NCBI RefSeq assembly: GCF_011170125.1 | Contig: NZ_BLLN01000002.1 | Location: 1,087,501-1,151,500 of the forward strand | Length of the DNA stretch: 64,000 nucleotides | Reading direction: 5' to 3' | Source of the DNA: Streptomyces diastaticus subsp. diastaticus | GTDB lineage: Bacteria > Actinomycetota > Actinomycetes > Streptomycetales > Streptomycetaceae | In this document: one piece after another, positions 12,479 to 16,867 of the stretch | Layout: every line of letters starts with the position of its first letter | Numbering within the stretch: the stretch's first letter is position 1 | Position numbers and translations under genes: made by a program | Notes under the pieces: model-generated | The model's database searches: none | Seen by the model: the letters and a program-made list of their open reading frames with translations, nothing else | Told to the model about the DNA's origin: nothing

Positions 12479-12517
12479 CGGGCCCGGTCGCCGGTGAGGT
12501 GCCGGCGACCGGGCCCG
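12479..12517. terminator. Bidirectional hairpin terminator
   Basis: A perfect 16-base inverted repeat (cgggcccggtcgccgg and complement) with a 7-base loop lies between the convergent M23 peptidase and the TIR-like membrane-protein gene. Confidence 0.8.
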
Positions 12518-12556: not shown

Positions 12557-13960
12557 CTACAGGCGCGAGTCGACCCAGTCGCGCACATCCCGGCGGACGA
12601 GCAGCAGGGCGGCCACGGGCATGCTCAGGACGATCAGCAACAGCAGGACGAAGGCGACGAACAGCACCCTGCCCGGAGCGGGCAGCTTCCCCAGCACGGC
12701 TGCCAGCAGCAGCACGGGGAAGAAGACGCCTTGGATGCGGCTGATCATGACGGCGTACGGGCCCCCGCGCCACAGCCGGTACCCGCAGACGGCGACCACC
12801 AGCAACCACAGCAGGAGAGGCCAACTCGTGTAGAGGGAGAGGAGAGCGCCGGGGTCGAAGCCGCGGGAGAGGTCGGGAACCTCGGGCGGGAGGATGTCCC
12901 CGACGGCGAGGACCAGGCCCGCGAGCAGGAGGGGCAGTGTCAGCGGCGCCAGCCAGAACGTGGCGATCACCAGCACGCTCACCTTCACCGCCCACGGGCG
13001 CCGCGTCCTGGGCTTGAGTCGCGCCGGAACGCCCGCCCGCCGATAGACGGGCTGCAAGGCGCGCGGCAGAGCCCGCTGTGTACGACGTGCGACGCCGAGC
13101 AGGGGGAACCTGCCGTCCAGCATCTCCCAGTGCGGTGTCCAGTCGCGGTCGAACCAGATCGCCGCGCGAACATAGCGTCCTCGCAGGAGACGGTGGCGGA
13201 TGCGCTTCGGCGGGTAGTCGGGCAGTCCTTTGGGGAACTCGCCTTCCAGCGCCGCGCGGAACCGCGTGTACTGGTCGTGGTCCCGGACGGCCAGGAGGAC
13301 CAGACGGGTCGGGTCGTCGCGCCTCACCAGCTCTCTGACCTCGCGGCCGAGATTCCTGCCCGCCCCCGCGGCCAGCACGACGAGGGCGGAGCGGTCGAGC
13401 GCGGCGACCACCTCGTTCCACCACGTCCCGTCCGAGGCGTAATGGCGCTGGGCGCCGAGGTGCGGCAGCCGGTCGGTCGTACTGCCGAGCGCCACCATCC
13501 GGCCGAACGGTGCGAACGCGCGGCCGACCTGGTCCTCTTCGGTCCGCAGATGGGCGGGTGTGGGCAGCATGAAGGTGAACAGCAGGCGGAACCATCGCCG
13601 TGCGGCCACCCGGGAGAAGCCGGCGTCGTCCTTGAACGACCGGAGGAACACCACGATCCGCTCGTCCGCGGGGAGGCCCTGGATGCTGGTCAGGACGGGA
13701 GTCAGATGCATCCGCCCCCGCAGCACCGCCCAGATGCCGGCCACCACCAGAAGCGCGTTGGCCGCGAAGATCCCCCAGGTCGCCCAGGCCGAGGCGGTCC
13801 CGTAGGCGAATCCGATGCCTCCGGCGCCCAGGGTCAGTGCGATCCACCCCGCCGTACTCAGACGGCGGCCCTGGCGCTCGGACTGGGCGATCACGGCGGC
13901 CTGACGGGGCGGGCGTCTCGGTCTGGGCGGCGCTGTGCTGTCGGTTCGCAGTTCCGCCAT
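12557..13960 (-). CDS. Multi-TM protein with a cytoplasmic TIR-like/Rossmannoid domain
   Basis: A 467-residue protein. Two TM helices (about 36-54 and 60-80) are followed by a soluble domain (about 98-290) and then about four TM helices (325-355, 370-395 and two more to 460). The soluble domain begins RIVVFLRSFKDD, continues with an EE pair, FGRMVALGS, GAQRHYASDGTWWNEVVAALDRSALVVLAAG, and GREVRELV. That order of strand, D-x-W helix, and Glu-containing helix resembles TIR/STIR domains, but this is a visual inference, not a family match. The ATG at 13960 has GGAG upstream. It is divergent from a SLATT-type gene 65 bases away, suggesting a joint system. Confidence 0.7.
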   Translation of the reverse strand: MAELRTDSTAPPRPRRPPRQAAVIAQSERQGRRLSTAGWIALTLGAGGIGFAYGTASAWATWGIFAANALLVVAGIWAVLRGRMHLTPVLTSIQGLPADERIVVFLRSFKDDAGFSRVAARRWFRLLFTFMLPTPAHLRTEEDQVGRAFAPFGRMVALGSTTDRLPHLGAQRHYASDGTWWNEVVAALDRSALVVLAAGAGRNLGREVRELVRRDDPTRLVLLAVRDHDQYTRFRAALEGEFPKGLPDYPPKRIRHRLLRGRYVRAAIWFDRDWTPHWEMLDGRFPLLGVARRTQRALPRALQPVYRRAGVPARLKPRTRRPWAVKVSVLVIATFWLAPLTLPLLLAGLVLAVGDILPPEVPDLSRGFDPGALLSLYTSWPLLLWLLVVAVCGYRLWRGGPYAVMISRIQGVFFPVLLLAAVLGKLPAPGRVLFVAFVLLLLIVLSMPVAALLLVRRDVRDWVDSRL

Positions 13961-14025
13961 CTTGCTCCGCCTTGTCGAGTCGGGGACGCTGGCTTCCTCA
14001 CGGTAGTGCTGAGAGGGCGTGAGTT

Positions 14026-14904
14026 GTGGGGGATTCAGGCGATTCGGCCGTGCGGTGGGTGTGGGACCGGCAGAGCGTCTGGTCACAGGCCGCGGACCAG
14101 GCCAAGCGCTCGATCGGACGGGCCAGGAGAGCCGGGCTCGTGCTGGGCGTGACGGGGGCGTGCCTCGGCACCGCGGCCGCCCAGGTCATGGGGTGGAGCG
14201 AGGAGGCGGGGAAGAGCCTGGCCTTCCTGGCGGCCGTCGCGGTGGGGCTCGTTCCGCTCGCCACCAGGAACGCGGGTCCCCAGCAGGTCCGCGAGTGGAC
14301 CAGGCTGCGCTCGCTCAGCGAGGAGCTCAAGAGCGAGGTCCACGTGTACCTCGCGCACGTCGTTCCCTACCGGGAGGCTGACGCCTCCCAGCTCCTCCTG
14401 GAACGTGCCGAGCGGGCGCTCGCGGACGCCTCCGACCTCGCCGGCCACACCGTCGGCCTCACTCCGCGTCGGCGCGCGCTCCCCCTCGTCACCGATGTCG
14501 GCTCCTACCTGAGGCTGCGGGTCGCCGACCAGATCGCGGGCTACTACCGGCCCCGGGCGGCGTACATGAGCCGACGGGGTGCCCGCGTCCGCCGGGTGGA
14601 GCTGGCGTTGGCCGTGGGCGCGGCGCTGCTGGGAGCCGCGTCCGGCGCCTTCGGCGACGAGTGGCCCGTCGCGTGGATCGCGACGGTCACGACTGTGGCC
14701 GCCGCGTTCACCGCGCACGCCGCGGCCTCCCGGTACGCGTACCAGGAGATGGACTTCTCCCGTACCGCCGCGGAACTGGAAGGTCTCACGGTCCGGCGCG
14801 CTCAGGCCGCCGACCCCGCCACCGACGACGCCTTCGTCGAACGATGCGAGCGGGTCATAGCCGCGCAGAACCAGGGGTGGCAGGCGAAGTGGCTCGGTGA
14901 GTAG
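14026..14904 (+). CDS. SLATT/DUF4231-type membrane protein with two copies of the 2-TM unit
   Basis: A 292-residue protein with two related halves. The first has W-x-x-Q-x-x-W-S-x-x-A (11-24), two TM helices (36-53 and 66-80), then WTRLRSLSEELKSEVHVYLAHVVPY. The second has YLRLRVADQIAGYYRPRAAYMSRRGARVRR (161-190), two TM helices (190-207 and 214-234), then YAYQEMDFSRTAAELEGL. This is the SLATT/DUF4231 architecture. Computational surveys place it as a pore-forming effector beside nucleotide-signalling conflict systems. No nucleotidyltransferase is nearby; the only partner is the divergent TIR-like membrane protein. Start GTG at 14026 with GAGAGGG upstream. Confidence 0.75.
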   Translation: MGDSGDSAVRWVWDRQSVWSQAADQAKRSIGRARRAGLVLGVTGACLGTAAAQVMGWSEEAGKSLAFLAAVAVGLVPLATRNAGPQQVREWTRLRSLSEELKSEVHVYLAHVVPYREADASQLLLERAERALADASDLAGHTVGLTPRRRALPLVTDVGSYLRLRVADQIAGYYRPRAAYMSRRGARVRRVELALAVGAALLGAASGAFGDEWPVAWIATVTTVAAAFTAHAAASRYAYQEMDFSRTAAELEGLTVRRAQAADPATDDAFVERCERVIAAQNQGWQAKWLGE

Positions 14905-16257: not shown

Positions 16258-16425
16258 TCACCACGGGTCGGCGATCTCGTGCAGTCTGCCGCACGCCAGC
16301 ATGGGGCAACGGACGTAACGAGCGGCGGGGGCTTCGGGTTTCAGGTCTGGCTCGGTGGCTTCCGGTGCGGCGGGGCGCGGCGGGTCGGGGTGGTCGTCCT
16401 CAGGGCGTACGTTCGGCGGGGTCAC
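16258..16425 (-). CDS. Small Cys-containing protein (55 aa), last gene of microgene operon
   Basis: Starts at a GTG with GAGGAG seven bases upstream. The N-terminal 35 residues are Pro/Glu-rich and disordered-looking; the C-terminus is RYVRCPMLACGRLHEIADP, where C-x4-C and a His resemble a small metal site. No family recognised. It overlaps the previous gene by 26 bases, so it belongs to the same transcript. Confidence 0.55.
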   Translation of the reverse strand: MTPPNVRPEDDHPDPPRPAAPEATEPDLKPEAPAARYVRCPMLACGRLHEIADPW

Positions 16426-16867
16426 GCGTATCTCCTCGGTTAAGGAACGACGCCCGGCCGTCGCCGTCACGCCGACGGACGGACGTAATTCTCGGGATCA
16501 GCAGGGGGCGGGCTGTGAGCTGGTACCAGGCCCCTCCCTCGCGGGCGGTGAAGCGGTACGGGAAGCCGGTCGCGAGGCGGTCGACGGTCTCCTCGCCGTA
16601 GGCCGGGTCGGCTGCCCAGAGGCGGAGTTGGGAGGGGGCGTGCTCGGCGGGCCGCACCACCGGGCGCAGCGCCCCCGGCGGCAGGCGGGTGGTGCGCGGG
16701 TCGGGGTCGAGGGCGTCGGCGAGGCGGTGCGCCTGACGGCGCAGCCAGCGCAGCGCGAGGCGCCGGGTCGGGGCGACGACCCCGCCGAGGAACACGGAGG
16801 AGGCGGCCGCACCCCCGTGGACCTCGGCGAGGTACTCGACCCCCGCCGCCGGGCAGGCTCCGCTCAC
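16400..16867 (-). CDS. Uncharacterised Arg-rich protein (155 aa) of microgene operon
   Basis: A soluble, Arg/Ala-rich protein. The only notable segments are APTRRLALRWLRRQAHRLADALDPDP and FPYRFTAREGGAWYQLTARP. No family recognised. It starts at a GTG overlapping the stop of the 40-residue gene (GTGA). The last 25 bases overlap the start of the 55-residue gene. Its setting beside an XRE/DUF397 module is the only hint of role. Confidence 0.55.
   Translation of the reverse strand: MSGACPAAGVEYLAEVHGGAAASSVFLGGVVAPTRRLALRWLRRQAHRLADALDPDPRTTRLPPGALRPVVRPAEHAPSQLRLWAADPAYGEETVDRLATGFPYRFTAREGGAWYQLTARPLLIPRITSVRRRDGDGRASFLNRGDTRDPAERTP

Follow-up and report, generated by a model that had tools for sequence, protein, structure and literature searches.

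Do two membrane-protein genes that face away from each other in the genome of Streptomyces diastaticus subsp. diastaticus form a defense module, and if so, what would each partner contribute? The genes lie in a 64,000-nucleotide stretch of contig NZ_BLLN01000002.1 (hereafter, the window). One encodes a membrane protein with tandem SLATT units, and the other, on the opposite strand, a membrane protein whose soluble domain is predicted to resemble both TIR domains and the nucleotide N-hydrolase DNPH1/RCL (DrHyd), here called the TIR/DrHyd-like protein. An earlier, sequence-only reading had placed two membrane-protein genes on either side of a 65-bp gap, and both are indeed found there (Table 1). 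We judge the chances to be about even that the pair is a compact two-gene conflict module, probably anti-phage and abortive, that combines a TIR/DrHyd-type enzyme or sensor with a SLATT membrane effector.

Conserved pairing of the two genes and neighbors of the SLATT family

Direct reading of four distinct loci showed the divergent pair in each: the window, L002 (Streptomyces sp. CB02923), L003 (S. aureocirculatus), and L081; L080, taken from the genus survey, repeats the CB02923 contig and was not counted separately. Searches of a protein collection, both of which scored only the 8000 candidates with most words in common, returned 28 non-self homologs of the TIR/DrHyd-like protein and 77 of the SLATT protein, and nine further homologs of the former brought its total to 37, four of them distant. 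In ten of the 28 (12 of 37 with the added homologs), the longest contig has exactly the length of that of a SLATT homolog, which was taken as linkage; these twelve linkages come from the matching lengths and not from reading the contigs, except for P0011/P0039, which is L002. Comparison of the partner distances by the mirror-tree approach for 15 pairs (the window, L003, L081, and the twelve inferred pairs) yielded a correlation of r = 0.890, to which shared descent contributes, and none of 5000 permutations gave a value as high. These results indicate that the co-occurrence of the two genes, for which a neighborhood survey had been proposed, is conserved.

The sequence-only reading had also described two SLATT/DUF4231-like units of two transmembrane helices each in tandem, and profile searches agree. 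When SLATT membership was tested with PF18181, PF14015, and PF18184, matches over the two-transmembrane units exceeded the curated cut-offs, with DUF4231 covering the first unit (E = 2.1e-18; 67.1 bits vs a cut-off of 24.7) and SLATT_1 the second (E = 3.3e-21; 76 bits vs 26.3). The NCBIfam SLATT_1 model also matches the protein (8.7e-26), and hydropathy analysis revealed four hydrophobic segments.

Elsewhere in the genus, the SLATT family keeps company with genes of biological conflict. The family was detected in 18 of 392 genomes (E 1e-10), three of which hold a close form of the TIR/DrHyd-like protein. Sixteen other SLATT loci were fetched, and selected large neighbors were run through Pfam in 11 of them (all but L107 and L111-L114). 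Conflict-type genes, i.e., those encoding TIR, NACHT, nSTAND, MoxR, or WD40, were present in all 11: TIR_2-WD40 in L101, L102, L103, L106, and L115; TIR-NACHT in L104; nSTAND1-WD40 in L108; NACHT-AAA in L109; a WD40 protein in L100; NACHT and MoxR in L105, where a WD40 match fell below the cut-off; and TIR, MoxR, and TIR-TPR in L110. Of all the evidence, these STAND/TIR-type neighbors argue most strongly for a role in immunity. Judged by gene sizes, with Pfam run on L110 only, L110-L113 repeat one order of tandem SLATT, TIR, MoxR-like ATPase, an unnamed protein, and TIR-TPR.

The membrane-embedded domain and its small partners

The TIR/DrHyd-like protein is composed of an N-terminal transmembrane region, a soluble domain, and further transmembrane helices; the N-terminal region appears as one segment by hydropathy and as two helices in the structure model. 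No significant Pfam, NCBIfam, or PADLOC family was found for the protein. The TIR, TIR_2, and ThsB_TIR profiles did not match it and matched one of 38 family members at E 0.19, the Nuc_deoxyrib_tr-type (DrHyd) profile was absent from the match tables of the window protein and of family members, and hhalign gave 0.1% for similarity to the LOG profile (SLOG/LOG) against nine LOG sequences. When the fold of the domain model was compared, DNPH1/RCL or TIR domains occupied 10 of the 12 top rows, with identities of 13-14% to DNPH1/RCL and 6-9% to SPARTA TIR domains. From the model, the soluble domain is predicted to belong to the TIR-like Rossmannoid fold class. The TIR/STIR-like fold put forward in the sequence-only reading therefore stands in part: the model does place a Rossmannoid, TIR-like domain between transmembrane helices, but no sequence profile ties it to TIR, and its similarity to DrHyd (DNPH1) is at least as good. 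Rather than a confident match to an unrelated fold and an absence of co-occurrence, we found a predicted fold of the TIR/DrHyd type and linked genes.

Alignments of relatives confirmed the conservation of the FLRSFKDD motif, the EE pair, and the Glu-containing helix that had been singled out from the sequence, and the tryptophan of the 'D-x-T-W-W' stretch corresponds to the conserved W180. E207 is invariant in 36 of 36 sequences of alignment A7 and of A6 and is, by its position, a candidate catalytic residue. D112, R107, and W180 likewise show no variation in A7. The residue before the conserved Glu is a nearly invariant W in relatives and R in the window protein.

When 392 genomes of the genus were searched with a close-family profile, 32 proved to carry the domain, at 36 places that all fall in 35 survey loci, the window included; close matches (>300 bits) were confined to 3 of the 392. 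A six-frame scan within 2 kb of the domain identified the small membrane protein 8xMP (PF24838) in 22 of the 35 loci and SLATT in five, with one remnant in each group, for a total of 27 of 35 loci with one or the other. Neither was present in eight loci, two of which (L124 and L128) are on short stretches. Given 22 loci with 8xMP and five with SLATT beside one domain family, the two small proteins occupy the same place. The 8xMP scan model was seeded with four proteins (from L082, L083, L084, and L088), each also matched by Pfam's own model, and eleven of the 22 loci, remnant included, are also direct Pfam 8xMP matches. 8xMP is uncommon (31 places in 26 of 150 genomes), and chance adjacency would account for well under 0.1 of the 35 loci (~0.2 per 8.5-Mb genome, 5 kb per locus). 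Counting against an exclusive pairing, 20 of the 31 8xMP places are not beside the domain, some copies being fused to an acetyltransferase or next to other genes. The genome of the window itself has no 8xMP match. In the domain tree, loci labeled 8xMP occur on most branches, and the SLATT label comprises the window clade plus L093; since support for joining L093 to this clade is low (39/76) and long branches are involved, one or two origins of the SLATT pairing are both possible.

Beyond the genus, a phylum sample searched with the A6 profile held the domain in 2 of 396 genomes, both of the window's genus, with a loose first pass that may miss distant members, and the protein search returned one relative outside the genus (P0019, from Actinophytocola). 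The phage collection contained no match, and among plasmids there was one distant Streptomyces match (30%). Two distant relatives, P0114 and P0115, one of them on a Streptomyces plasmid, are named 'transferase' by NCBI.

Several individual loci were also of interest. An 8xMP remnant with one stop in it lies beside the TIR-like gene of L096 (7661-7759), which suggests that the small partner decays first. In L098 (6914-8641), a TIR-like domain is fused to DUF4429; this locus was considered as a SLATT fusion and rejected, the SLATT neighbor being a 39-residue remnant just upstream in another frame. In L164 (4970-9306), 8xMP stands opposite a unit of two genes, the second of which encodes a protein that begins with FLRTF, a related motif (wide-profile E 5e-4), possibly a more distant branch. 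L165 (12668-14475) and L166 (3162-5107) carry 8xMP after a protein that combines an S1 domain with an N-terminal stretch judged DrHyd-like by eye; these proteins do not match the TIR/DrHyd-like domain profile, a weak Nuc_deoxyrib_tr match was obtained for L166 only (E 0.016), and the two loci are perhaps another pairing of a nucleotide enzyme with 8xMP. 8xMP is fused behind a GNAT acetyltransferase in L170 (4139-5131; Pfam), and L169, L171, and L172 have open reading frames (ORFs) of similar size, as judged by size and 8xMP matches only. By gene sizes, L082, L083, and L084, all of the 8xMP type, have a common gene order, within which a luciferase-like monooxygenase and an FMN reductase were identified in L082.

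Gene starts and flanking DNA

Table 1. Features of the divergent pair and its surroundings, in window coordinates
Feature	Position	Strand	Details
Membrane TIR/DrHyd-like protein gene	12557..13960	-	467 aa; ATG at 13960, stop at 12557
Soluble Rossmannoid domain	13016..13693	-	Residues 90-315, between helices 28-86 (N-terminal) and 323-454 (C-terminal)
E207 codon	13340..13342	-	Invariant Glu in helix after third sheet strand
Divergent intergenic region	13961..14025		65 bp; starts of both genes face each other
Tandem SLATT membrane protein gene	14026..14904	+	292 aa; GTG at 14026, stop at 14904; two units of two transmembrane helices
First SLATT-type unit, DUF4231	14077..14382	+	Pfam, residues 18-119
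Second unit, SLATT_1	14506..14880	+	Pfam, residues 161-285
Perfect 16-bp inverted repeat	12479..12517		Between convergent M23 peptidase gene and TIR/DrHyd-like gene

The ATG of the TIR/DrHyd-like gene has a GGAG a short way upstream and shares its alignment column with the starts of relatives P0002 and P0004; a longer alternative ORF with a GTG start reaches 14086. Within the divergent intergenic region, in which no consensus sigma-70 site was detected, the block 13999-14014 is kept in three of four aligned loci (alignment A8) and, from this sequence conservation, may be a candidate shared promoter or operator of the pair. The inverted repeat is a possible terminator; a scan for terminators with T-tracts found none.

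Seven flanking ORFs were run through Pfam, and six of them gave normal matches (M23-PG_binding, DUF4232, DUF3224, Usp, glyoxalase, and HTH_31-DUF5753), the exception being the ORF at 16400-16867. The decayed DNA that had been suspected in the flanks was thus not established. Cyclic oligonucleotide-based antiphage signaling systems (CBASS) with 2TM or SLATT effectors follow a similar membrane effector logic. The window pair differs from them in that no adjacent cGAS/DncV-like nucleotidyltransferase was present among the seven ORFs, six of which were identified, in agreement with the suggestion of a module lacking a nucleotidyltransferase. For an insertion-site comparison, the flanking M23 gene gave only short or weak matches in 30 other genomes.

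Known systems, proposed mechanism, and alternatives

Parts of the pair have precedents. TIR-SLATT neighborhoods have been described in firmicute phages, with SLATT predicted to be a membrane effector regulated by an ADP-ribose derivative (PMC9503650). As in those neighborhoods, a TIR-class domain protein stands beside SLATT and a nucleotidyltransferase is not needed; in contrast, the domain here is embedded between transmembrane helices and without a TIR profile match, SLATT is duplicated, and the wider family of the window domain has 8xMP instead of SLATT. In DRT10, which consists of a UG17 reverse transcriptase, a noncoding RNA, and SLATT, deletion of SLATT abolishes phage defense, and its mode of action is called speculative (PMC12632851); SLATT is likewise a partner required for defense there, but alongside a reverse transcriptase and not a TIR/DrHyd-like domain. 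In GTPase systems, too, SLATT has been connected with nucleotide-related effectors (PMC7159879). Compared with DNPH1/RCL and the SPARTA TIR, the window domain is set apart by low identity, the lack of a profile match, and its membrane context. Excerpts of the literature on TIR-SLATT, 8xMP, DUF4231 (PMC10799925), and Streptomyces SLATT (PMC11256431) contained no description of this system. Thus, TIR-SLATT neighborhoods and the tie of SLATT to nucleotide-related effectors are already known, while three aspects are new: a membrane-embedded domain that no family model covers, the divergent two-gene arrangement that joins it to a duplicated SLATT, and the exchange between SLATT and 8xMP.

The sequence data establish the two genes, their domain composition, invariant residues, and conserved linkage, together with the predicted fold class and the immune-type genes that adjoin SLATT family members elsewhere. 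In the mechanism that we infer, from orientation and enzymatic activity through signal and gating to pore formation and defense, the minus-strand protein would be anchored in the membrane with its TIR/DrHyd-type domain in the cytoplasm. The domain would sense infection through some trigger and then cleave or bind a nucleotide (NAD+ or a deoxynucleotide) via E207, and the product or a conformational change would open the tandem SLATT protein, which would then permeabilize the membrane. We propose more tentatively that the domain represents a new family of membrane-embedded nucleotide N-glycosidases of the TIR/DrHyd class, with SLATT and 8xMP as interchangeable effectors.

The domain could instead be a ligand sensor and not an enzyme, gating SLATT by direct membrane contact and with no diffusible signal. 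Both partners are predicted membrane proteins, their distances correlate strongly, and the W found before the conserved Glu in most relatives is missing from the window protein, all of which would suit a sensor; the invariance of E207, D112, R107, and W180 is typical of an active site, although a binding site would look alike, and we regard the sensor as somewhat unlikely. It is less probable still that the pair serves membrane or envelope homeostasis outside immunity, with a nucleotide-type fold used in regulation. While the largely one-genus distribution (P0019 aside), the lack of a phage-collection match, and the common gene order of L082-L084 with its monooxygenase and reductase are consistent with such a role, the patchy occurrence, with >300-bit matches in three genomes of the genus, and the STAND/TIR genes beside other SLATT family members argue against it. 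A divergent pair with a short common intergenic region and paired evolution of its partners is also reminiscent of toxin-antitoxin modules, in which case SLATT would be toxic and kept closed by the multi-transmembrane protein without a dedicated trigger. However, the larger partner retains invariant, active-site-like residues, and 15 of the 18 SLATT-positive genomes carry the family without this partner; we consider this arrangement quite improbable.

Returning to the proposed conflict module, we put 8xMP forward as another class of effector, since it stands in for SLATT beside one conserved domain, itself without a name in Pfam, NCBIfam, or PADLOC. The pair offers a small, cloneable system for testing the predicted nucleotide-gated SLATT pores. 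If the proposed N-glycosidase family with interchangeable effectors is real, 8xMP, in Pfam only an octameric membrane protein family, would add a new class to the membrane effectors of immunity, and within a larger two-gene system the window pair would represent the SLATT-type branch.
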